A stretch of DNA of 64,000 bases from Nitrospirota bacterium. Its GTDB lineage: Bacteria; Nitrospirota; UBA9217. The stretch covers positions 1-64,000 of the forward strand of contig DATIZR010000049.1 in assembly GCA_035516965.1 (NCBI GenBank). The letters are read 5' to 3'. Shown here in pieces: positions 5,819 through 43,805 of the stretch. Below the pieces are notes generated by a model. The model was not told the origin of the DNA, searched no databases, and was given only the letters and a program-made list of their open reading frames with translations. The translations under genes and the position numbers were made by a program. The stretch's first letter is position 1; each line of letters starts with the position of its first letter.

Positions 5819-8815
5819 TCACAATTTTACGTCGAACTGCATCTCCCGGTCACCCAGGAAAAAGCGCTTCCTGATCACCTTCACGCTCACGGTCTCGCCT
5901 TTCTTCTTGAAGAAGAGCACGAGCCTGATGTCCTCCACGCTCTCAACCTGTTCGTTGTCGAGCGACAGGATCCTGTCCCCGACGGTCATGCCGGCTTTCT
6001 TCGACACGCTGCCCTCGGGCAGTTCGATGATGCTGACCGCGCTGTTCTCGACCTTGAGCACCGCCATGAGCTTCGGCGGCGCGACTCCCTCGAGCGGCTG
6101 CGGCAGGAGCAGGTAGTTCGCGACGTCCGGTTCGACCTCGCTGTCGTTCAGCGCGATGAAGTAGGGGAGGCTGTTCCTGCGGAACGCTCGCTTCGGGATG
6201 CCGGACCCGTAGGAGAGATGGCCGCTGCCGGCGATCACGACCATGCGGCGTTCGGGGTTCTTCCGCAGGAACTCGTCAATGGACTCCGCCATGGTCTCGT
6301 CCCAGAGCACCTGGGCCTCGAAGAAGTAGTCGAAGCTCAATTCGGCAGCACCCGGGTGCTGGTCGAAGGCCGACTTCAACCGGTCCCGGTACCCGGCGTC
6401 CGAGAAATCCATCTGCCGCGGCACCTCGCTCCGCTCCTCACTGGTCAGGGAATCGAGGCCGGATTTCGAGACCTTGTCCGTGATCTCCTTCCGCTGGTTG
6501 AGCGCGACCACGGGTATCCGGTGCTCCCGCGCGAAATCGAGGATGGGTTTGTACAGGTTGTAGTCGAAGACCCAGCGCTTGAAGTACTCCGATTGCTTCA
6601 GGAACGCGCGTTCGTCGATCGTGCCGCCAATGTAGTCATCAAGCACCTTCTGGAAGGGCCGCTGGAACATTTCCATGCCGATGGCGAGGCTCAGCCCCTT
6701 CTCGTGGAGGGCACTGATCACCTGGAGCTGCACGGCATGGTGCGCGAACTTGTCATGATACTCGCCGAGGTAGATGATCCTGTTCCCGGCCGCCGCGGTG
6801 ACGGCTTCGGTCAGCGTCTTGACCGAGGAAAGGTCGATTGCCATCGTTCTTTCTCTGAGCTCCATGAGCATACCCCTTTGCGACTCGTCGGTCTTCCGGG
6901 AAAGGCCGCCCGCCCGGTCGACGGTCACGCGGCTGTACCTGCCGGACTGCAGCATCTGAGCAAACCCCGCAGCCGCGTCCCTGTCGGTGCGCGCATGCAT
7001 CAGCAGGACAGCCTTGCGCGGATTCCAGGGATTTTTCCTTGCAATCAGATCGAAGGCTGCGCCGGTACCGCTCATCATCCCTCCGAACAGACGGTCGATA
7101 ATGGGGTTGTCCCTGCCGAGGACTACAAGCGAGGAGGACTTGAGCGAAGCATCGGTGAGGTCTGCCGCCTCCTTTACTAGGGCCCCCTGTTCCTTCAGTC
7201 GATCAATCACTCTCTGGTAGGACTCCCGGCCGGCAACGGGGAGCACGACCAGGCGGCTGTCGTCCCCAAGGAATGTTTCGATCAGGGGGGGCGACTCCTC
7301 CTCGGTCAGTTCCCGTGCAAGGTCATAATCCGGGTCGATAACGAGGTTCCGCGGCTCCTCGGGAGGCTGGAGGGTGATGTCTGTCTTCCCGGAGCCGATG
7401 TTCAGGCGCTCCGTCGTAACAGCGCCGTTCGCCAGCGTCATGACGGCCGGAACCTCGACGGGAATGGACAGATTATGTTGGTCCAGCGTGAAAGTGACCT
7501 CGAAGATGTCACCGGAGCGCTGGACCGCGGGCTTGTCCGGGACCAGCTCGGCAAGCCCTTCTTTGTCCACCCATTGCTTGAAGAAGGGGGCAAGGTCAGA
7601 GCCTGCGCGGCGCTCGAAGGCAAGCCGCACATCGTCCCATGAGGCGCGCTGGAACCGCTTTTCCGTGATCAGTTCCCGAAGCCCGTCAAAGAACATTGTG
7701 TCGCCCAGCGACCGCCTGAGCATGTGAAAGACGAGAGCTCCTTTACCGCGGCCAATGGCGCGGGCAGCGCCGTCCGTGCCGTCCCGGAGACCCCGGAGCG
7801 ACGTCTCATTCTTGGCGTTCACCCGGGAGGCATAGTCGAGGAGCAGTTGTTTTCGGAAATCCCGGCCCCTGCCTGCCTGCTCCTCGCTCAGATGTTCTCC
7901 CAGATAGGCGACGAGTCCGGCGGCCCAGTTACCCTGTTCAGGATCGACGAAGACCGCACTGCCGAACCATTCGCTCAGGATCTGATCGCGCAGGGGGGCC
8001 TCCGCACGGGAAAGGCGGAAGTCGCCCCGGTCGATCAGGGCGATGGTCGGTTGCGCGACGGACAAGGATCGCACGCTCTCGACGAGAGATATCCTCCGGT
8101 ACGGAAACCGGGAAAGGAGCTTCTCGTACTGCTCGAGGTAGTCCCTGGCCTCCGCGAGACGTATGGCTGCATGGCCCCGGTCTTCGGGAAGATAGTACGT
8201 AACGATCTCGACGCCGTTCATCTCGTTGCTGAGCAGCGCGTAGCGGCCGGCCACAAGGCTCAGCCCGTCGAGGGGATGGTCGAATTGGAAGTGGAATTCC
8301 CACTGGCCATCGCGGATGTTCTTCTCGATCGCGTCCGCCTCGGACACGGCCTCGTACCCCGCCGGCAGATTCACCCTGAGCCGGTATCGCGCGGGCCCTT
8401 CGATCTTCGGATACCAGGCGCCGGTCAGGAATATCCCATTGGCATCGATGACCCTCTCCTTGATCGGCGGGGATCCCGATCCGGAACTTGTCCCGCCCTT
8501 GAACACTCCTTCATATTCGATCGTCAGTCGTCCGCCTTCCTTGGGAGCGGTGCTGATCGCGATCCTGTTGTTCGTGACCGCACGATCCATGGCAACACCG
8601 TTGAGGCTCACGTTCTTGATGATGAGGTCCGACGTGGTGATCGTAACCGGCATGTCGGGAGCGAGCGCGATGGTGGCAACGCCTGTCAGGCGAGAAGCGG
8701 GAAGGTCGATGGAGACGGTGAGGCTGTATTCCGGCAGCGTTATTTCGTTGCTGCGAGCCGGAAACGGGGAGAGCAGGATGAGAATAAGAAAGAGACTGCG
8801 AATCAGTTTCGGCAT
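5819..8815 (-). CDS. Secreted protein: inactive M1-peptidase fold + ChaN domain + PDZ
   Basis: A 998-residue exported protein with a signal peptide of about 22 residues. Residues 25-470 follow the M1 aminopeptidase layout (beta sandwich, then helical domain). The zinc site HExxHxW is replaced by DQILSEW at 277-283, so all three catalytic residues are gone. Residues 520-650 form an alpha/beta linker domain. Residues 675-880 match ChaN/haem-binding-uptake (Tiki-like) proteins, with YLGEYHDKFAHH, EMFQRP and a terminal AGSGHLSYG. Residues 905-998 form a PDZ domain (GSVSKKAGMTVGDRILSLD). ChaN family members bind haem or act in iron uptake. Here the dead peptidase could bind peptide or substrate in the periplasm. 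A GAGG site lies 6 bases upstream of the ATG. I am not aware of this exact fusion being characterised. Confidence 0.85.
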   Translation of the reverse strand: MPKLIRSLFLILILLSPFPARSNEITLPEYSLTVSIDLPASRLTGVATIALAPDMPVTITTSDLIIKNVSLNGVAMDRAVTNNRIAISTAPKEGGRLTIEYEGVFKGGTSSGSGSPPIKERVIDANGIFLTGAWYPKIEGPARYRLRVNLPAGYEAVSEADAIEKNIRDGQWEFHFQFDHPLDGLSLVAGRYALLSNEMNGVEIVTYYLPEDRGHAAIRLAEARDYLEQYEKLLSRFPYRRISLVESVRSLSVAQPTIALIDRGDFRLSRAEAPLRDQILSEWFGSAVFVDPEQGNWAAGLVAYLGEHLSEEQAGRGRDFRKQLLLDYASRVNAKNETSLRGLRDGTDGAARAIGRGKGALVFHMLRRSLGDTMFFDGLRELITEKRFQRASWDDVRLAFERRAGSDLAPFFKQWVDKEGLAELVPDKPAVQRSGDIFEVTFTLDQHNLSIPVEVPAVMTLANGAVTTERLNIGSGKTDITLQPPEEPRNLVIDPDYDLARELTEEESPPLIETFLGDDSRLVVLPVAGRESYQRVIDRLKEQGALVKEAADLTDASLKSSSLVVLGRDNPIIDRLFGGMMSGTGAAFDLIARKNPWNPRKAVLLMHARTDRDAAAGFAQMLQSGRYSRVTVDRAGGLSRKTDESQRGMLMELRERTMAIDLSSVKTLTEAVTAAAGNRIIYLGEYHDKFAHHAVQLQVISALHEKGLSLAIGMEMFQRPFQKVLDDYIGGTIDERAFLKQSEYFKRWVFDYNLYKPILDFAREHRIPVVALNQRKEITDKVSKSGLDSLTSEERSEVPRQMDFSDAGYRDRLKSAFDQHPGAAELSFDYFFEAQVLWDETMAESIDEFLRKNPERRMVVIAGSGHLSYGSGIPKRAFRRNSLPYFIALNDSEVEPDVANYLLLPQPLEGVAPPKLMAVLKVENSAVSIIELPEGSVSKKAGMTVGDRILSLDNEQVESVEDIRLVLFFKKKGETVSVKVIRKRFFLGDREMQFDVKL

Positions 8816-29097: not shown

Positions 29098-29769
29098 ATG
29101 ATTACGATCAAGCTCTTCGCCATATTAAAGGACCGGGCAGGACGGGATGAACTGCAGGTGCCCTATTCAGGAGGGCCGGTCGTTGATCTGTTGAAACAGG
29201 TGGCGGCCGTTTATCCTGCGCTGGCGGACCTCCTGTCACCGGGCAGGATCATGGTGTCCGTCAACCAGGAATTCGTGAGGCAGGACGCGCCTGTCCGCGA
29301 CGGGGACGAGGTGGCGCTCATGCCGCCTTTTTCGGGCGGGAGCGGACGGGCGCCGATCAGGGTCCAGCACGAGCCTTTCTCGGTCGACGAGGAGCTCGAA
29401 CGAATGAAGCAGTCATCGAACTCGATCGGCGGCATCGTGACCTTCCTGGGCACCACGCGCGACATCTCGCGGGACAAGGCCGTGTCAAAGCTGGAGTTCG
29501 AGCACTATCCGGGGATGGCGGAGAAGAAGCTTGCGGAGATCAGGGAGCGTGCGATCAGGGAATACGGGGTGATCGATGTCTCGATCATCCACCGCGTGGG
29601 AACGCTGCCCGTGGGGGAGAACATCGTGCTGATCGCCGTCGCCGCAATGCACCGCGACGAGGCGTTCAAAGGCTGCCGGTTCTGCATTGACGAGTTGAAG
29701 CGGATCACGCCGATCTGGAAGAAGGAGACCACTTCCGAGGGAGAGGTATGGGTGGAGGAACATCCCTGA
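29098..29769 (+). CDS. MoaD-MoaE fusion (molybdopterin synthase)
   Basis: A 223-residue protein. Residues 1-81 form the ubiquitin-like MoaD fold ending in the Gly-Gly of PPFSGG (80-81). Residues 88-223 form MoaE, with GGIVTFLGTTRD, LEFEHYPGMAEKKL, HRVGTLPVGE and a lysine-rich catalytic end (DELKRITPIWKKE). Together they insert two sulfurs into cPMP. In separate MoaD the Gly-Gly must be the free C-terminus for thiocarboxylation, so here it must be exposed by cleavage or bypassed. It implies use of molybdenum or tungsten enzymes. A bidirectional terminator follows. Confidence 0.93.
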   Translation: MITIKLFAILKDRAGRDELQVPYSGGPVVDLLKQVAAVYPALADLLSPGRIMVSVNQEFVRQDAPVRDGDEVALMPPFSGGSGRAPIRVQHEPFSVDEELERMKQSSNSIGGIVTFLGTTRDISRDKAVSKLEFEHYPGMAEKKLAEIRERAIREYGVIDVSIIHRVGTLPVGENIVLIAVAAMHRDEAFKGCRFCIDELKRITPIWKKETTSEGEVWVEEHP

Positions 29770-34130: not shown

Positions 34131-35333
34131 TCATCCCAGGGGGTGCTTCCCCTCGCTCAATTCCCTGCAGAATCCGGCGATGCCCGCGAGCTCGCGTTCG
34201 ATGATCTCTTCCGCACGTCTCGACACATCCCTGACCTCCAGCCCGCGCTCGAGCACGACCTGGGCAGCCGCCATCTGCGGCTGGTCAATGGGCGAGCCGA
34301 TCCTGCTCACGAGATACACATAGGCTTCCCGGATGCCCTCGATCTCGCGGCACAATTTTTCCGCCAGGCGGTGCGAGAGAATATTGTATATCTTGCCCAC
34401 GTGGCTCACGGGGTTTTTGCCTGCCGCGGCCTCGGTGCCGAGCGGCCTGTTTACGGAGATGAGGCCGTTCACACGGTTGCCCCGCCCGACCTGACCGGAA
34501 TCGGCGTCCTCCGCCGACGTGCCGGTCAGGCTCAGGTAGATGCCGTCCATGCCCCTGCCGGGTTCGTCCAACGCATTGTAATGCACGCGGACTTCCCCGG
34601 AGCCGGCGCCCTGCCGTAAAAACTCGCTCATCTCCTGAATCAGTAAATCCTTCCTCCAGAAGTAGTCCTTTTCCGATGAGATCTCCCTGCAGAGGAGCGG
34701 CATGGCCACGGTAAGGTCTAGATCGTTCCCGTGCCTGAGCGCCATCACCTTCACGTCCTCGCCGGTCTCGGGGCGGCTCGCCTTGAAGTCCGGGGAATTG
34801 AGGCGCCGCTCCAGGCCGAGCACCATCTGCTCCGTGGGGCTCAGCGGATAATACCCGACCGTGGCCGACGTGTCATTGGCTCCCCTGACCGCACCCGGCC
34901 GCGAGAATATGTCCGTCAGCTCTTCCGACCCGGGAGCGAGGACAACCCGGTAGTTCACCTGTTGTTCGGGATCGACAAAGCGCATGTTCTTCCTGAGCCA
35001 GGCGCGGGCCGCATCCACGGCGATTTCCGCCACGGGAATGCTCCTGCCTTTGGCGCTGCTCGTCGCCCGGTCGCCGATCGTGAGCTCCATGGGTTTCAGC
35101 ACCTCGCCGCCCTTGAACTCCTTCCTGACGCTCCCGGCCGCCAGCAGGCCCTTGTCGATGTTGTGGTGCAGGATCGTTCCGAATTCCTGGAGGTAGGCCT
35201 GCGAGAGCGCGATCGAAATGGCGTCCATCATGGAATCGCAGAGCGTGTCCGGATGGCCGACGCCTTTGCGTTCAACGATCTCGAAGAGATGGTCCGCGAC
35301 GGGTTTCCCGGGAAAGGGCTCGACAATGATCAT
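34131..35333 (-). CDS. metK: Archaeal-type S-adenosylmethionine synthetase
   Basis: A 400-residue enzyme forming S-adenosylmethionine from methionine and ATP. It belongs to the archaeal MAT family (AdoMet_Synthase), not the bacterial three-domain MetK. Evidence: ERKGVGHPDTLCDSMMDAIS near the N-terminus, the NIDKGLLAAG segment, NRPLGTEAAAGKNPVSHVGKIYN, and the RIGSPIDQP block; the bacterial GHPDKxxD/FGDQG pattern is absent. Only scattered bacteria carry this form. The ATG giving MIIVEPFPG is preferred; an upstream ATG at 35357 adds 8 residues. A TATAAT lies 7 bases before the chosen ATG, so the mRNA may be nearly leaderless. Confidence 0.93.
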   Translation of the reverse strand: MIIVEPFPGKPVADHLFEIVERKGVGHPDTLCDSMMDAISIALSQAYLQEFGTILHHNIDKGLLAAGSVRKEFKGGEVLKPMELTIGDRATSSAKGRSIPVAEIAVDAARAWLRKNMRFVDPEQQVNYRVVLAPGSEELTDIFSRPGAVRGANDTSATVGYYPLSPTEQMVLGLERRLNSPDFKASRPETGEDVKVMALRHGNDLDLTVAMPLLCREISSEKDYFWRKDLLIQEMSEFLRQGAGSGEVRVHYNALDEPGRGMDGIYLSLTGTSAEDADSGQVGRGNRVNGLISVNRPLGTEAAAGKNPVSHVGKIYNILSHRLAEKLCREIEGIREAYVYLVSRIGSPIDQPQMAAAQVVLERGLEVRDVSRRAEEIIERELAGIAGFCRELSEGKHPLG

Positions 35334-35493
35334 GCTCTGATTATACAGGAAAACCATACCATCGGCCGGCGGGGCATGGTTCCGGATACGCGGCAGGACA
35401 GGGCAAGGGCGAGCTTATCTCGAGGCGTCTCCAAAATCATATTTCCCGGTATTGGGCATGACGGCGGAACAAGACTGAATGCGTTTCTCGGCG

Positions 35494-38400
35494 TTACCCC
35501 AGCCGTTCGATCAATTCCCTCACGGTCACGAACAGGTCGCCCGGGATCGGGTGCACGCGCGGGGCGGGCCGGTTCTGGTTCAGTTTCATGAGCGGCGCTT
35601 CGCGGTCCTTGTTGAAGCAGAGGATCTCGGCGCGGCTGCCGAGGTAGTCGGTATGCTGCGGCGCGCCGGAGATGCCGAGGGCGATGATGAGTTTGGGGTT
35701 TACGCGAACGCCGGTCTGGCCAATCTGGGCATCGAGCGGCAGCAGCTTCAGGTCCTGCGTGACCTTGCGCGTCGCTCCGAACATCGGTGCAAGGCCGAGC
35801 GCCTCCAGCTTCTTCTTGAGCTCCTGTGCGAGCGCGATTCCCGAGTTGTCCCTGATGCCGTACCCGAGGTCGATGATCACGTCTGCCTGTGCAAGGGTCG
35901 GCGGCGCTGTGGGCGGGAGCGGCATGATCCAGCCGGGATCAACGGCAAGGTCCAGGATATGGGCTTTGAATTCCCGCCTCTGTGCCTGCGCCGGGAAATC
36001 AGCTTCCGGGGCGACGGTCACGAATGCGGAGCCGCTCACGAAGACATGGCGCCTGATCAGTCTGCCTTCATAGGCGGGGAGCGAAAAGACAAGAGCGCCC
36101 GGGCCTTCCCTTGTTACGTCCGTTACTCCTGAGCAGAGGAGGACGTTGTTTCCCGGGTCATCCGCCTCGCCGGCCGCGTAGGCAAGGGAGCTTGCCCATT
36201 CCGTGCCCGCGAATATCATCGCGCTGTTCGACGCCTGCAGCATCAGGCGGAGCATCTGCCGTTTGCCCTCCTCCGTGAGCCTCCCGTTCCGTGAATCCAG
36301 GCAATAGGCCTGCTCGCAGCCATTTGCCCGAGCCACGCCGAGAAGCTGAGGCCACTTGTCGCGGGGAGCGGGTATCACGGCGCAGACGTTCCTGCTGACC
36401 AGTCCGGCAGACAGGACGCAGGCGCGGAGCACGGCGATATTTCCCTTCGGGTCATGGGGCTCGAGCACTGCCCAGATCGCATTGCCGTCCGTAAGAATAT
36501 GATGGGGAAGCTCTCCGCGATAATCCTGCGATGTTCCCGCGCTTGCCGACGCTGCGAAGACCCTGATGTACTCCGCTGCCGAGAGGGGGTCGGCGCTTAT
36601 TGCTGACGTTGACCTTGCTCCGGAGGGAAGGTCAAAACTTCCAACAGCATTCAGCTTTTGGTCAGACGTCATGACACTGATGGGCGAGTTCAGTGCAGAA
36701 ATCGATTCTACGATATTATGTTCCGGCTCGGACGCAGCGCCCGCAATGCTGATGACCGACGGAAGTGCGGGATGGACAAACCCGCTTCCATCGGGCTTGA
36801 CCTCGATCTCATTTGTCCGTTCGTGGTGCCGATCGAGCCTGCCTGCGAGATAAGCGCCTAGGCTCCGGTCTCCGTCGAGACCTGCGTCACCCACGGCGAT
36901 CAGGTCGTACTGCTGAGTGCCTTCGAGGTTCTGTATCATCGGGACATACGCGGCGGGTCCGCTCGAAGGGGCGATATCGAGGCGATGGAGGCTGTCAGCG
37001 CGGGGCCCCGCGGTCATCCTGAGAAGCGATTCCAGTTCCACGCCTCCGGGCATGAGCACGTCGATACTTACCAATGAATCGCCGCTGGGCTTGAGTGCGA
37101 GCAGCTGCGTCAGGGCCGCCAGGTCGGACGGGTTGATCCTCCACACGAGTTCTCGTAATTCCCCGTCCGCCAACCGGGGCCGGGGCGACAGATCGGCAAC
37201 GGGCCTGATGATCGAAAGCGCGCGAAGAGGAACTGCTAATGCCCCCGGTGCCGTGACAGGAGCAGGTTCCTTGCGCGACATCTCATCAAGCGCTGCATCG
37301 GCCAGTCGCACCTCGGGCATGTCCATGCTGTTCCTGACCTGTTCCCAGTTCTGCAGGAATTTCTCCTCCAGATGCTCAAGGCGCGTACGTGTCCTCTCGG
37401 CCGCCCTGCGGCCGGCGGAAAGCATGTTCATGCCGTAGTCCGGGAGATGCAGGTCAAAGGCGGGACGCCGGGCATTCAGCCACTCCCTGCGGTACCGGAT
37501 GCATTCGAGCCGCAGGATCTCACCGGCCATCTCGGAAAGGGGGAAGAGCGCGGGCTGGAGCATGGCATCGGACCAGCCCGTGTCGCCGAGCGTCCGGCTG
37601 GCTTCCCTGACATAGGAACGGAGCCGGTTCTTCCATGCTGCCAGCGTCCGGTCGGCATCAGGGCCCTCCTGTTCGGAGAGCTCCGGCCAGTTTGCTGCCA
37701 TGGCGATCAGGTCCTTCAGGATGAGGAAGCGCTGGACCTCGTTCGTGCCTTCGTAGATCGTGAGGATGCGGCTGTCGCGCCGCGCTTTCTCGAGTAGATG
37801 CTTTTCGGTCTGGCCCGCAGGGCCGTAGGCCTGCTCCACGAGTGTGATCAGTTCATGGATGTCCTCGGAGCAGACGTATTTTGCGATGGCCGATTCCATG
37901 CGCACCGACTCATGGGGCCGGTCGAACAGGCCGATCAGGTAGGAAGCGAGGGACTCGCTGCCGAACAGGATGGCCGCTGCCTCGCCCAGCAGCCTGTCGC
38001 GTTCCTCCGAAGCAGGTATCGCTGCGTTCGCCTCGGCCAGGAGCTTGCGCATCAGCGCACCGGAGACCACGGCAAGTCCGCACCGCCCCACGTTCAGGGT
38101 CTCGAGCGCGTTCACCTGGCCATGTCCCTCGTACCCGATCACGGCCTCTCGCGGTACCCGCACGCTGTCGATGGAAATCTCGTTCGTGGGCGAGCCTCGC
38201 TGGCCGGTCTTCTTCTCGTCTGCCCCGACCTTGAGCCCCTCGCTGTGCCGGTCCACCATGAAACCGGTCACGCCCTCGGGTGTCCGTGCGTACAAACAGA
38301 ACTGCGTCGCTATACTCCCGTTCGTGATCCACATCTTGGCGCCCGTCAGGCTGTAGTACTCGTACAGGGAGCCGTTGTCCGTGCTGCGCACCTGGCCGAT

Positions 38401-41400
38401 GTCATGGAACGGGCATTCCTTTCCTTTATAGAGATAGTAGCGGGACCCCTGGTCTGTCCTGTAATCGTATTGGTCATAGCGGATCGGCTGCTTCTGCTTG
38501 TCCGGCGTCTCATAGGCAATTCCGACATCCGTGAAGACGATCTTGTCCGCATCGATCAGATACCGGAAGCTCTCCTCATCGCCCTGCGGCTGAAAGGAGT
38601 ACCTGCCGTCATCGAGCGGCGTCATTCTTGCTTTCAACAGTTTAGCCGTAGTTTGGACACCGCCAGAGTCCGAGCCTGCTGTCGGTTCGGTCAGGGCAAA
38701 GGCGCTGACCGCGCTGTGGCCGAGGTAGCGGAGGAAGAGCCGGTGGCAACGCTCGCGCCGGGGAAGCTCTTCGAGGGAGGCACGGATGTCGGGCATGACC
38801 TTATCGAAGAGCCCGCCGGCATGCCTGAGATCCTCCATGAATGCGCCGAAATCGCCGCGCTGGCCGGCGATGCCCGCGCCGTAAAAGGCTTTCAGAAAAT
38901 GTGCGGCAAGATATTTCACGACGCGGGTATGGCGGATCCGGTCATCCACCAGCTTCATGATCGCTTCGTATTCTTTCCTGATCCATGCCGGGTTGGGTCT
39001 GGACAGGGCGCGGATGAGCCTCGCGAGCCGGGCGCCGATGCTGCCGAGTCTGCCTTCGTCTTCAACGAGGGGGGTCAGTTCCTCGCGCACGCGGGGAAGC
39101 TCCTCCTCGAGCCCGAGCAGGATCGGTGTCGTGCCGATGCTCGTGCTTGCCATGATCAGGAGGTCAATGGACGCGTCGCCGAAGCTGCCGGCCGCGGAGT
39201 TCAGGAGGTAGTATTCCGCCTTGCGCCAGCCGAGGCCGTCGAGCGACTGGGGGATATAGGTGGCGAGCCATTTGCCGTTCTTTGCCGCCTGTATGATCTC
39301 CGCCGGCAGATGATGGGACCGGTCGATGCTGCGCTCGAAGCCCAGGCCGTTGAATTGCTTTTCAGAGCAGTTCTGCCTGAACCAGTTCACGAGATCTGCC
39401 CAGCGCGCCCTGAGCTTCGGGTCATCCATCTGCATCTCGGGAACGAACCGCGGCGAACGGTCGAACACGGTCGCCAGGAAGCTCCCCGATCGGTGAGGCG
39501 CGCCCGGGGCCGTGCAGAACGCATCGTAGTCCGTGCCCTCCATGATAGCGGTGCTCGGGGGCGCAACGGGAAAGACAGACGAGGGAGGTACTGAACCGCG
39601 GCCCCCGGAGAGCGACGCCTGCATGACAGCGTCTTCCGCCAAGCCGAGCAGGACCTCGGCAGCCGCCGCGCGCGTCTCGCTCCCTTCCCCTCGGCTCAAG
39701 GCTTCCTCGATGGAGACGAGCATTCCGCGAAGGGCGGTGACCATGGCTTTTGCTTCCCCGGCGAGCGAAGCGTCCGGCTGCCCGGCCAGATCGGCGCACT
39801 TCTTCATGATGGCGTGTAACCGAAAGGCGAGAGGCTGCAGCGGTTCGCCCTGCACGGTGTCAAGACTGCCGAGAAAGGGTATTGCCTGCTCGAGGTCCTG
39901 CCCAGCGAGCGTACGATTCAACGCGGCAGCCGCGCCGTATCCCGGGGCCAGGAACCGGAACAGGGAACTGTCCCGGTAGAACCGCGAGAGCAGGTCGTCC
40001 TCGGAATAGGCAAAGCCGCCGAAGACCTGCCCGGCGTCGTAGCCCATGCTGCCGGGCTCGGGCCCGAAGGCCTTGGCCGCGATCGTTGAAAAGAGAAGAC
40101 CGAGTTCGGAGTGTCGCGTCGGGACTTCGGAGTGAAAGCTAACATCATAAAGAGTTTGCAGCAGCATCCGCCAGGCTTCGATCCGCGCGATCAGCGCCTT
40201 GACCGCGCCGAGCTTCGCGATGCCATCCCGGCCTTCCGTGTCGATCATCTGTCCCGGGAACTGGACCCTCCCTGAGGCATGTTCCTTCACGCGGAGGGAA
40301 AGATAGTCGGCAGCGCCGAGCGCGATGGCGAGACAGGAGCGTGCATCGGGGACCGGGGAGTGTCCCTGGATGGCCAAGGCCTGCTTTTCCACGAGGCAAT
40401 CGATCCCGATATCGGATAGACCTGCCGCCCGGAACCCGATGGCGGGCGCAGGCGTGATCGTGACGCCCGACTGAGTGAAGGGGACCAGGTATCCGCTGTT
40501 GCCCGCGCACAGAAGCAGGGTGCGGCCGGCAGCAGCGGGCACCAGGCTTAGAAATCCCTTGAGCCGGACACCTTCCTGCGTCTGCGTGATCTCGATATGA
40601 TGTCCGTCCACGGCGCACACGCCCGGGTCAGGAGTAAAGCCTGCCCGGGAAAGGATGCCCGTGGCGGCGAGCTGGTGGGAGGCGATCAGTCCGAGCGCGG
40701 GATTGACCGAGGAGAGGACGCGCACCATTTCAAAGGGAGAGTCGCGGTGATCGGAAATCAACGTCCTCAGGATCTCGCACGAGGCTTCGGGCATGGGCGA
40801 ATCTTCCCATTGTTTTACGACCCGGTCGGGAAACACTGCCGAGACGTGCTCATACGAAAATCCCCGTCCGTCCCTCTTGTCCCGGGGAGGATGTTTCCTG
40901 CCGCCTTGAGAGGCTGGATTTGAAAACCTCGCCGTGATCCGCTCCTCGATCCTGGCGCTGCAATAAAGCGCATGGAACAGCCTGCCCTCACCAAGCCTGA
41001 TCCCTAGGGCAGCGCGTTCGTATCGGACCATCCGGGCCAAATCATGTTCGTTGCTGTCTGCAAGGGCGGAATCGAGGTATGTCAGCTTTTCCGAAAGTCT
41101 CAGGCCGAGAGAGAGGGGCCATGCCGTTCGCGCCTTGTCCGCGGAAAGAGGGAGCTTCTCCACGCTTTCCCTGAATGCGGACGAGGCATGGAGGACAGCA
41201 TGCACGAACTGCCGGCGGGCAGGATCCAGGGGCCCCGGCTCCTGCCAGGCGAGGTCGCCGTCTTTGACGGGGGCACGTTCCTGCGATCGGCCGGTCTTGA
41301 GCGTGTCGAGGAGAACCGACAATGAGGCACTTTCGGGCCGGTAGATGAGTTTGTGGTCCGTGTGCCTGCCCCACAAAGCGCGACCCGGCTCGGCGCGCCA

Positions 41401-43404
41401 GCAAGATTCGCACTTGATGCAGTTTTCAAAATTGACCGTGACCTTGCCGCGTCCGGAGAAGGGCGGGACATCGTAGACATAGACGCGGGCAGGGCAGACA
41501 TGCCACAGGCCGCTCCGGGACATCGCGGGCTGAGTCGCAACGGATTCAGGCCAGAGCGTCCGGATATGGGAACCGGCACCCACGCGGTAGGTGTTCGTAG
41601 CGAGCTTTGCCTCGAGGCTCAGGGACGGCTTTACGAGGTCGAGGTCCCTCGCTTTTCTCAGCGACTCCTGGTATGCCATGACGGGCTCGGCAAGGAGTAT
41701 GTCAACGGGTGTCTTGAGCACGTAAAAGCGGAACGCATCAACGACGGCTGTTCCGAGCGCGATGAAGAAGAGCGCCGTTGCGTACGCGGGCAGGAGCGCA
41801 ATGTCGGTGAGCCGGAAGCCTTGAAGAACGTGACGGACAGCCCGGCTGAGCTTTTTCCCGAGCGGCTTGCCGTTATTGGCGTAGACCTGCGCGAGTGCGC
41901 GAGAGAGCGCCGGGGACATGCGTTCGAACAGCGAGCCGACCGGCCAGGGAAGCGATGCAGGTTCGATCTCCCTGCCGCGGATGTGCAGGATGAAGCGCAG
42001 CTTCTGATCACGATTCGCGGATGTCTTCACCAGGTTCATGGTCCATCGCCAGAATGTCGCCGGATTGAAGAGTGTCGCGAGGAGGGGTTTCCCGAGCCTG
42101 AGAGCGCCAACAGCGCGGACCGTGTCGACCGTGATTTCGCGCAATCCCTTTAAGGAGAGGATGTTGCTTCTGAGGAACCTGCCGGTCTCAACGTGGCCGT
42201 TGGTCGAAAGAAAATGCATTGTCCCGCAGACCGTATCAAGGGTCCTGCCGAATAGAACATGGGAACTCCCGAAATAGGCCGGCCACCGGGAGAGATGTTC
42301 GGCATTCCTGCCGCAGGCGCTCTCCCGCAGCGGCTCGATATACTCGCCGGCCAGTTCCCGTTCGTCAAAGGAGCCGCCCCGCTTCAGGATGTTCTTCACC
42401 GCGCGGGTGAAGAAGAGTCCCGTTGCCGAGGAGGGCCCGGTAAAATTGGGGAAGGGAATGTCGATGCCGAGATTGGCTGACGCGCCGCCCACGGCGAAGC
42501 CGTCCTGGACGAGCAGGGGCCGCTCGTGCCACCCCCCGCTCCTGATGATCTTGGTGCCGTACGCCGAGAGCGTCGCGCCCTCGATCAGGTCCCCGATGAA
42601 AGGGAGACCGCGCATCCACTCGTAAATGGCATCATGGCTTCCGCGAAAATTGTCCCGGATATTGTCGAGGGGCGCTACGTACCCGAGCGAGAGGCTGTCG
42701 CGGTTCGTGTACAGGAAGCCTCCGATGTTCAGGTGCGCGGTCCTTCCCCCGATTGCCGGATTTCGCAGCAGCAGTTCGTAGGCAGCGCCTTCCCCGGCCT
42801 TGAGACCGAACCGCTTCTCGATCTCATCCTCGCCGAGCGAAAGCACGGCCTTCACGCCCTGGAGAAAGTGCGGCTGAGGCAGGCGTTCGAGTTGTTCCGC
42901 ACGGACCAGGTGCGACGCGTCTCCCTCGGCGAGGAACGTAACGTCCGCGTACAGCGCTCCCCGGTTCGTATCCACGCCGACCACCCTGTTGTTGTTTCTG
43001 ATGAGCGAAGTGACCGTGGTGCCGGGGAGGTGGACGGCGCCCTTACGCGCCGCGAGGTTTGCGAAGTAGGGATCGTAGAGTGGCCTGAGCACGGTATAGC
43101 AGTCCCGGAACGCCTCGCGGTCGCGCAACTCCAGCCCGACCACGTCTTGGCCATTGTGCATGAGGGTCCCCCGCTTTGCGACCGCGCGCTCGAACGGCGC
43201 GGACGCCACTGCTACGGGGCCGAAGCAGTCCTCAGCCGCCAGGCTCTCGGTGAAGTAGACGCAGCCCGACCAGTTTTCTGCTCCCGCATACACGCCGGCC
43301 TCGAGCAGGGCAACGGAGATGCCGGCCCCGGCGAGGGCGCCCGCGGCCGTGACGCCGGCAGGGCCCGCGCCGATGATGATGACGGTGAACCGGGGAAGCG
43401 CCAT
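35494..43404 (-). CDS. Giant ETF-QO / ferredoxin / double acyl-CoA dehydrogenase / ETF fusion (2636 aa)
   Basis: A single open frame with ATG at 43404 and AGGAG 7 bases upstream. Domains in order: (1) 1-430, FAD oxidoreductase of the FixC/ETF:quinone-oxidoreductase type, GAGPAG at 12-17 and GFAVGGASANLGIDIPFPNF at 302-321; (2) a hydrophobic segment at about 533-563, a possible membrane anchor; (3) 630-690, FixX-like [4Fe-4S] domain with Cys637 (HVCPARVY), Cys662, Cys665 and Cys668; (4) 850-1170, an acyl-CoA-dehydrogenase-like module lacking the FAD-side TEPxAGSD motif and with the catalytic Glu position replaced (RDSSLFRFLAPGYG); (5) 1290-2030, a full acyl-CoA dehydrogenase with ALTEPTAGSDSGG and the catalytic Glu1885 in YEGTNEVQR; (6) 2060-2270, ETF-beta-like; (7) 2300-2636, ETF-alpha-like with the FAD-binding QTGVRVNP and ALGISGAPQH segments. 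Together they would pass electrons from an acyl-CoA through ETF and an Fe-S centre to quinone. The substrate is unknown. Confidence 0.9.
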   Translation of the reverse strand: MALPRFTVIIIGAGPAGVTAAGALAGAGISVALLEAGVYAGAENWSGCVYFTESLAAEDCFGPVAVASAPFERAVAKRGTLMHNGQDVVGLELRDREAFRDCYTVLRPLYDPYFANLAARKGAVHLPGTTVTSLIRNNNRVVGVDTNRGALYADVTFLAEGDASHLVRAEQLERLPQPHFLQGVKAVLSLGEDEIEKRFGLKAGEGAAYELLLRNPAIGGRTAHLNIGGFLYTNRDSLSLGYVAPLDNIRDNFRGSHDAIYEWMRGLPFIGDLIEGATLSAYGTKIIRSGGWHERPLLVQDGFAVGGASANLGIDIPFPNFTGPSSATGLFFTRAVKNILKRGGSFDERELAGEYIEPLRESACGRNAEHLSRWPAYFGSSHVLFGRTLDTVCGTMHFLSTNGHVETGRFLRSNILSLKGLREITVDTVRAVGALRLGKPLLATLFNPATFWRWTMNLVKTSANRDQKLRFILHIRGREIEPASLPWPVGSLFERMSPALSRALAQVYANNGKPLGKKLSRAVRHVLQGFRLTDIALLPAYATALFFIALGTAVVDAFRFYVLKTPVDILLAEPVMAYQESLRKARDLDLVKPSLSLEAKLATNTYRVGAGSHIRTLWPESVATQPAMSRSGLWHVCPARVYVYDVPPFSGRGKVTVNFENCIKCESCWRAEPGRALWGRHTDHKLIYRPESASLSVLLDTLKTGRSQERAPVKDGDLAWQEPGPLDPARRQFVHAVLHASSAFRESVEKLPLSADKARTAWPLSLGLRLSEKLTYLDSALADSNEHDLARMVRYERAALGIRLGEGRLFHALYCSARIEERITARFSNPASQGGRKHPPRDKRDGRGFSYEHVSAVFPDRVVKQWEDSPMPEASCEILRTLISDHRDSPFEMVRVLSSVNPALGLIASHQLAATGILSRAGFTPDPGVCAVDGHHIEITQTQEGVRLKGFLSLVPAAAGRTLLLCAGNSGYLVPFTQSGVTITPAPAIGFRAAGLSDIGIDCLVEKQALAIQGHSPVPDARSCLAIALGAADYLSLRVKEHASGRVQFPGQMIDTEGRDGIAKLGAVKALIARIEAWRMLLQTLYDVSFHSEVPTRHSELGLLFSTIAAKAFGPEPGSMGYDAGQVFGGFAYSEDDLLSRFYRDSSLFRFLAPGYGAAAALNRTLAGQDLEQAIPFLGSLDTVQGEPLQPLAFRLHAIMKKCADLAGQPDASLAGEAKAMVTALRGMLVSIEEALSRGEGSETRAAAAEVLLGLAEDAVMQASLSGGRGSVPPSSVFPVAPPSTAIMEGTDYDAFCTAPGAPHRSGSFLATVFDRSPRFVPEMQMDDPKLRARWADLVNWFRQNCSEKQFNGLGFERSIDRSHHLPAEIIQAAKNGKWLATYIPQSLDGLGWRKAEYYLLNSAAGSFGDASIDLLIMASTSIGTTPILLGLEEELPRVREELTPLVEDEGRLGSIGARLARLIRALSRPNPAWIRKEYEAIMKLVDDRIRHTRVVKYLAAHFLKAFYGAGIAGQRGDFGAFMEDLRHAGGLFDKVMPDIRASLEELPRRERCHRLFLRYLGHSAVSAFALTEPTAGSDSGGVQTTAKLLKARMTPLDDGRYSFQPQGDEESFRYLIDADKIVFTDVGIAYETPDKQKQPIRYDQYDYRTDQGSRYYLYKGKECPFHDIGQVRSTDNGSLYEYYSLTGAKMWITNGSIATQFCLYARTPEGVTGFMVDRHSEGLKVGADEKKTGQRGSPTNEISIDSVRVPREAVIGYEGHGQVNALETLNVGRCGLAVVSGALMRKLLAEANAAIPASEERDRLLGEAAAILFGSESLASYLIGLFDRPHESVRMESAIAKYVCSEDIHELITLVEQAYGPAGQTEKHLLEKARRDSRILTIYEGTNEVQRFLILKDLIAMAANWPELSEQEGPDADRTLAAWKNRLRSYVREASRTLGDTGWSDAMLQPALFPLSEMAGEILRLECIRYRREWLNARRPAFDLHLPDYGMNMLSAGRRAAERTRTRLEHLEEKFLQNWEQVRNSMDMPEVRLADAALDEMSRKEPAPVTAPGALAVPLRALSIIRPVADLSPRPRLADGELRELVWRINPSDLAALTQLLALKPSGDSLVSIDVLMPGGVELESLLRMTAGPRADSLHRLDIAPSSGPAAYVPMIQNLEGTQQYDLIAVGDAGLDGDRSLGAYLAGRLDRHHERTNEIEVKPDGSGFVHPALPSVISIAGAASEPEHNIVESISALNSPISVMTSDQKLNAVGSFDLPSGARSTSAISADPLSAAEYIRVFAASASAGTSQDYRGELPHHILTDGNAIWAVLEPHDPKGNIAVLRACVLSAGLVSRNVCAVIPAPRDKWPQLLGVARANGCEQAYCLDSRNGRLTEEGKRQMLRLMLQASNSAMIFAGTEWASSLAYAAGEADDPGNNVLLCSGVTDVTREGPGALVFSLPAYEGRLIRRHVFVSGSAFVTVAPEADFPAQAQRREFKAHILDLAVDPGWIMPLPPTAPPTLAQADVIIDLGYGIRDNSGIALAQELKKKLEALGLAPMFGATRKVTQDLKLLPLDAQIGQTGVRVNPKLIIALGISGAPQHTDYLGSRAEILCFNKDREAPLMKLNQNRPAPRVHPIPGDLFVTVRELIERLG

Positions 43405-43476
43405 CGGTGCTCCTTTTCTGTGAAGGTTTCGATGCAGTCGAAGGGAGGATTGAGTGCTTCGCGTGCTGATGCAAAA

Positions 43477-43485: not shown

Positions 43486-43805
43486 GAACAGGACCGCTGT
43501 GGCTACCGGGAAAAGCTGTGATCGAAGCGGGCGTGTGCGAAGCAGGGAGTCCCGGCCGCGTCGCAGGCGGTGCATCGATTCGCCTTGGCATCGCGGAACA
43601 GCAGGTTCATCGTGCCGGTCAACAGCCTGCGCCTCTCAAATTATAAGAGTATTTCTTATGACAATCGCGGCTTGGCTCGCAGATGAGGCTGGCTGCCGAT
43701 TTTCTTTGACAACGCAAGCTGCTGTCATTAATATCGGGAGAGCGCCGGGGTGAGGCAAGTGGCTCGCCGTGCCGCGGCGGGTCAGGGAACAGGGAGGAGG
43801 CTGGC

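Follow-up and report, generated by a model that had tools for sequence, protein, structure and literature searches.

The locus examined here raises two questions: whether an open reading frame of 2636 codons, found in a 64,000-nucleotide stretch of DNA from a Nitrospirota bacterium (hereafter, the window; positions 1-64000 of contig G000:C49, which is 84 kb long and belongs to a genome of 3.8 Mb), encodes one protein, and what a protein would do that joins parts which are four to six separate proteins in other organisms. The frame contains no internal stop codon and runs from the ATG at 43404 to the stop codon at 35494-35496. A second in-frame ATG is located upstream at 43575, and the open frame reaches that far; the start at 43404 was preferred because AAGGAG lies 5 nt upstream of it and the homologues begin at this site. 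The features were assigned as follows (evidence in parentheses).

35494..43404, minus strand: whole gene for the 2636-aa fusion protein (open frame; equal order in one frame in 15 genomes)
43410..43415, minus strand: AAGGAG, the ribosome-binding site (spaced 5 nt from the ATG at 43404)
42130..43404, minus strand: FixC/EtfC-like quinone-reducing FAD module, aa 1-425 (7koe_C, 8.6e-46; NCBIfam PRK10015/FixC)
41734..41811, minus strand: hydrophobic helix, conserved, aa 532-557, within the linker that connects the FAD module to the [4Fe-4S] module (Kyte-Doolittle 19-aa maximum)
41305..41619, minus strand: [4Fe-4S] module, aa 596-700, ligands C637, C662, C665 and C668 (ETF-QO 2gmh match, 0.0023)
39475..40869, minus strand: ACAD', aa 846-1310, an acyl-CoA dehydrogenase (ACAD) fold without the catalytic Glu (weak PDB matches; VLCAD/ACAD9 fold match; motif counts)
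37690..39474, minus strand: catalytic ACAD, aa 1311-1905, with TEPxxGSD, WITNG and YEGT (base E1885) (Pfam, 3.3e-18; PDB 6fah_C, 4e-28)
37255..37689, minus strand: C-terminal helices that extend the catalytic ACAD, aa 1906-2050, like those of VLCAD/ACAD9 (model of aa 1905-2636, helices 12-138)
36535..37254, minus strand: degenerate ETF-beta-like module without its docking loop, aa 2051-2290 (4kpu_B, 3.4e-14; Foldseek EtfB; EtfB HMM)
35935..36534, minus strand: ETF-alpha N-terminal domain, aa 2291-2490 (profile alignment from about aa 2309; Foldseek EtfA)
35497..35934, minus strand: ETF-alpha FAD domain, aa 2491-2636, with GATRK, QIGQTG, SGAPQH and FNKD (PF00766, 7e-18)

Thus, the order of the modules is FixC/EtfC-like FAD, hydrophobic helix, four-Cys [4Fe-4S], non-catalytic ACAD', catalytic ACAD, ETF-beta and ETF-alpha. 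The initial annotation had read the frame as joining the quinone-side FAD, Fe-S, ACAD and ETF modules on one polypeptide, with each redox module from acyl-CoA to quinone in that order, and the domain assignments bear this out. With Pfam and NCBIfam, matches were obtained for the FixC-type FAD module, the ETF-QO 4Fe-4S region (635-669, weak), the N, M and C domains of ACAD (1358-1898), PF01012 (2088-2192) and the ETF-alpha FAD domain (2504-2585). With family profiles against the PDB, in addition to the FixC and ETF-QO cluster matches listed above, the first ACAD module (0.004), EtfB (4kpu_B) and EtfA (6fah, 6.5e-21) were matched. Taken per domain, profile and Foldseek searches therefore matched FixC, the ETF-QO cluster, the ACADs, EtfB and EtfA, ACAD' only weakly by sequence. 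The number of invariant positions was counted for each module in 12 homologues from two phyla; less than 5% of the positions of the linkers between modules were invariant. The motifs conserved across three phyla were the FixC-type GxGxxG, the four cluster Cys, YEGT/WITNG/GSD and the ETF-alpha FAD motifs.

The catalytic ACAD module carries the Glu of YEGT (E1885 in 21 of the 22 aligned sequences) together with TEPxxGSD (E1573/S1578/D1579, 22/22) and WITNG (W1692/T1694, 22/22). The RxxFG and QxxGG residues, which in MCAD-type enzymes hold the FAD of the neighbouring subunit, are not on the same module as the base: HMM alignment and motif counts showed that the catalytic ACAD has lost the RxxFG stretch and has other residues in place of QxxGG (AYGPAGQT in this gene), whereas ordinary ACADs keep R and F of RxxFG in 34/34 and the first G of QxxGG likewise in 34/34. 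Both are found on ACAD' instead, which retains R1046, Q1048, F1049, Q1126, G1129 and G1130 across three phyla and is without the YEGT base. The first ACAD had been described as dead; its catalytic Glu is indeed missing, but the module is not inert, since it keeps the partner-side FAD residues. The losses are thus complementary, the R and F of RxxFG being in ACAD' and not in the catalytic ACAD and the YEGT base the reverse, which most probably means that each chain has a single FAD and a single active site, located between both modules. ACAD' and the catalytic ACAD probably make one shared active site, by analogy with CasC (see below).

The predicted ACAD' part has an alpha-beta-alpha fold; the best PDB matches of the model were VLCAD and ACAD9 at 11-14% identity, and were placed on ACAD' by inference from this low identity, as the coordinates of the match were not given. 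The overall pLDDT of the model of ACAD' and ACAD was 68, with low confidence in the catalytic half; the shared site, or pseudo-dimer, was not seen in this model because that half was poorly predicted. Note that the HMM alignment also places two insertions in the catalytic ACAD, at 38740-39093 (aa about 1438-1555) and 38365-38637 (aa about 1590-1680); they fall in the N and middle domains, are common to the family, and are absent from the ordinary ACAD profile.

We consider it likely, on the sequence evidence, that the fusion is a membrane-associated single-chain acyl-CoA:quinone oxidoreductase with a tethered ETF and a shared ACAD site. In such an enzyme, a single FAD lying between the ACAD modules would oxidise acyl-CoA, the catalytic ACAD giving the base E1885 and the flavin pocket, and ACAD' giving the partner-side FAD contacts. 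The electrons would pass from this FAD to that of ETF-alpha, a tethered domain whose linker would let it swing across to the [4Fe-4S]/FixC-type FAD module. There, at the membrane, quinone would be reduced; three FAD and one cluster would be expected per chain. The likeness to VLCAD and ACAD9 suggests a long-chain substrate. We infer the shared active site, the long-chain substrate, the quinone acceptor, the tethered shuttling and the membrane anchoring from the domains and motifs.

The ACAD pair might also act on an unusual substrate (a carrier-protein-bound acyl group, a steroid or a branched acyl group) along the same electron path. The split between ACAD' and ACAD resembles that of steroid enzymes such as CasC, and the two insertions of the catalytic ACAD are specific to the family; however, steroid or carrier-protein genes were absent among the neighbours scanned, and the matches were general ACADs, VLCAD and ACAD9, so that we regard such a substrate as unlikely. 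More doubtful still is operation in reverse, as a quinol-driven reductase of enoyl-CoA (or of the acrylyl/caffeyl type) serving as a respiratory electron sink. Acryloyl-CoA and caffeyl-CoA reductases were among the matches, and ACAD/ETF systems are known as reductases; from established knowledge, however, reduction of an ordinary enoyl-CoA by menaquinol would yield little energy, and the likeness to VLCAD and ACAD9 would point to oxidation.

As for the quinone side, the initial annotation had called this part ETF-QO-like, which holds for the cluster and less well for the flavin module. The FAD module is nearer to FixC/EtfC: its match to 7koe_C covers profile positions 3-419, whereas ETF-QO (2gmh) was matched at only 1.1e-10, and 125 of its 425 positions were invariant. 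The single four-Cys cluster is of the ETF-QO type (CPAxVY...NCxKCxxCW); its Cys residues were invariant wherever the base was readable, and the module has no other conserved Cys. The four conserved Cys compare with eight in three unfused FixX, and the two clusters of the EtfX/FixX type were not found. The Kyte-Doolittle 19-aa maximum of the helix at aa 532-557 was 1.7-2.7 in all Nitrospirota members; the helix is also there in the other phyla, by eye less hydrophobic, and is a candidate membrane anchor.

Both ETF halves had been claimed, and both EtfA and EtfB were matched with Foldseek on a model of aa 1905-2636 (pLDDT 83). ETF-alpha is clear: the R, QTG, SGAxQH and NxD motifs of its C-terminal FAD domain were found in the motif columns, in agreement with the fold match, and this domain (43/146 positions invariant) is among the best conserved parts. 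In contrast, ETF-beta is barely recognisable in this gene (EtfB profile, 1e-4) and, with 7/240 positions invariant, is among the worst conserved parts together with the ETF-alpha N-terminal domain (3/200). In ordinary ETFs, a loop of ETF-beta docks to the dehydrogenase. A recognition loop of this kind (GIMKAKKK-like) was not found: on the Acidobacteriota copies, most of the EtfB profile aligns and the loop is missing, and on most Nitrospirota copies the match ends before it. Given the docking role of the loop, a copy that has lost it is consistent with an ETF that is permanently tethered.

The same data bear on whether the protein is a fused electron-bifurcating EtfABCX with an ACAD, in which a FAD on the beta side would divide the electrons of NADH, sending some to ferredoxin and the others to quinone or enoyl-CoA. 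In favour of this, the quinone module most resembles FixC/EtfC of the bifurcating EtfABCX, and bifurcating EtfAB-ACAD complexes were among the best ETF matches (6fah). The poor conservation of ETF-beta and the loss of its docking loop make such a protein unlikely; the weak beta half and the single four-Cys cluster, compared with the eight Cys of unfused FixX and the two clusters carried by EtfX (PMC10734219), argue against electron bifurcation, which we judge very improbable.

Complete frames with the same module order (about 2620-2930 aa) were found in 15 genomes of Nitrospirota, Acidobacteriota and Gemmatimonadota, far beyond chance, in answer to the search for homologues of the same order that had been proposed initially; 13 of the 15 were without any ambiguous base. 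Among Nitrospirota, relatives with the same order were present in 19 of 396 sampled genomes from three families, and in 10 of 14 genomes within the class of the window. Six strong matches were obtained in 396 genomes of Acidobacteriota, and the fusion was found in 5/346 genomes of Gemmatimonadota; the assignment of these two groups to phyla follows from the Vicinamibacterales and Gemmatimonadaceae records used as centres. Two Gemmatimonadota copies (G1353 and G1510) are on contigs of 4,094,397 and 4,743,186 bases in genomes of 4.1 and 4.7 Mb, which are essentially single-contig. At least one other fusion record was among the matches listed in the contig scan ('Nitrospirae bacterium isolate WY3.bin154', L040). 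No fusion was found in 395 genomes of Desulfobacterota, where one weak match was to a short broken frame, nor on viral contigs; the Myxococcota sample (5 genomes) was too small. Conserved internal starts were not found at the module borders, Shine-Dalgarno-like candidates sharing a column in at most 3 of 12 genes.

That assembly or gene calling had joined separate genes, for which a few draft copies broken by a gap (G009), a TAG codon (G031) or frame breaks (G264 and G328) might speak, has a negligible chance and was rejected in view of 15 complete frames in three phyla, two of them on near-whole-genome contigs, and no conserved internal start; neither of the two outcomes that the initial annotation had named as fatal to the fusion was thus obtained. 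The broken copies look like draft-assembly faults. In the copy of G031 (L030), the in-frame TAG is at about 7198-7200, at about aa 366 and near the end of the FAD module; it may be an error of sequencing, or the gene may naturally encode two proteins here.

When a tree was built from the catalytic ACAD, the Nitrospirota and Acidobacteriota fusions grouped in a single clade (100/100), separate from the 34 ordinary ACADs. In the tree of the FixC module, the fused copies of the three phyla again formed one clade (100/100) apart from four separate FixC proteins, sorted by phylum. With a small sample of separate proteins, the single clade in both trees makes it likely that the fusion arose once, long ago. 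An unfused operon of the order ACAD-ACAD-etfB-etfA-fixC-fixX is present in UBA1386 (L042), a member of Desulfobacterota, and other unfused operons have etfB-etfA-fixC-fixX with ACAD before or after. Since the order of the fusion is a rotation of the former, the comparison suggests an origin from an operon of this type. The fusion is absent from the same-family genomes G002, G004, G006 and G013, which suggests that it is dispensable in its family, though these drafts are incomplete (74-96% complete).

No beta-oxidation operon was found around the fusion gene among the neighbours scanned in the window and in the other phyla, which counts against the proposed function. The neighbours vary from phylum to phylum; in the window they include genes for S-adenosylmethionine synthetase, EngA, an aspartyl-type tRNA synthetase and other housekeeping genes. 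The synthetase gene (34134-35357, minus strand) is of the archaeal type (PF01941, 2.5e-157) and is the next gene downstream of the fusion, in the same orientation. At 29098-29766 (plus strand), a ThiS-like domain followed by MoaE forms one 223-aa frame, a fusion of the MoaD-MoaE type. In two Acidobacteriota copies, the next gene after the fusion gene is convergent and has the motif CELGLVLSGGGARGAAHVG (L151, 13834-15978; L153, 14690-16888; both minus strand); by eye it encodes a patatin-like phospholipase, with a possible link to lipids.

Besides the fusion, the genome encodes EtfB and EtfA as an ordinary pair of separate proteins, has ACAD at three other places, and contains a frame of 715 aa that includes an enoyl-CoA hydratase domain and is compatible with a FadB/FadJ-like protein. 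These genes make beta-oxidation plausible; they also suggest that diffusible ETF has not been wholly replaced, a point against the proposed path. Separate ACAD, EtfB and EtfA genes are located at the end of contig G000:C64 (L001, L002 and L034), where EtfA is encoded by a long frame of 409 aa and may resemble those EtfA proteins that carry an additional ferredoxin domain at the N-terminus.

The family of every module and the overall reaction are already known. The initial annotation knew of no description of this architecture, and none was found in open-access papers, subscription literature being outside the scope of the search; within that literature, the architecture on one chain, its occurrence in three phyla, the pairing of complementary ACADs and the loss of the docking loop appear to be undescribed. 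In textbook beta-oxidation, a diffusing ETF ferries electrons from many dehydrogenases to ETF-QO via short-lived complexes. We lean, with less assurance than for the reaction itself, towards a distinct, old respiratory enzyme class of three phyla, in which a tethered ETF flavin domain without a docking loop would swing, the ACAD site would be split, and the electrons would stay on the chain all the way from acyl-CoA to quinone. Such an enzyme, with every redox centre on one natural chain, would be a complete, stoichiometric acyl-CoA-to-quinone machine for structural and kinetic work, and would show that evolution can dispense with the ETF docking loop. It would also mark a route of fatty-acid respiration in phyla of soil and sediment that single-domain annotation would miss or mislabel.

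Among known systems, EtfABCX/FixABCX (Thermotoga maritima, 7KOE) shares with the fusion the FixC/EtfC-type FAD module, a ferredoxin-like module, the EtfB/EtfA folds and, as proposed for the fusion, association with the membrane; the fusion differs in being one chain with two ACADs inserted, one four-Cys cluster instead of two and a degenerate beta half, and its sequence gives no sign of bifurcation. ETF-QO (2gmh) likewise has an FAD module followed by a single four-Cys [4Fe-4S] module of the CPAxVY...CxxCxxC kind, whereas in the fusion the FAD module is FixC-like, a hydrophobic linker is inserted, and ETF and ACAD are on the same chain. The quinone module of mycobacterial EtfD is presumably unrelated to that of the fusion. 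EtfD, for which a role in linking ETF to the respiratory chain during beta-oxidation has been proposed (PMC13083937, PMC8593149), is a separate membrane protein. CasC of Rhodococcus jostii is a steroid ACAD with two fused ACAD domains, of which the N-terminal one is without the base and serves FAD binding and the C-terminal one has the catalytic Glu (PMC8399759). The fusion has the same arrangement by its motifs (CasC being compared by description), and CasC and the ChsE4/5-type heterotetramers alike combine a base-less FAD-binding ACAD with a Glu-bearing one; however, descriptions of CasC include neither an ETF nor a quinone module, and the ACADs of the fusion look VLCAD/ACAD9-like. The L042-type operon (Deltaproteobacteria UBA1386) has the same parts in one operon, in six separate genes, with only about 26-33% identity to the modules of the fusion.
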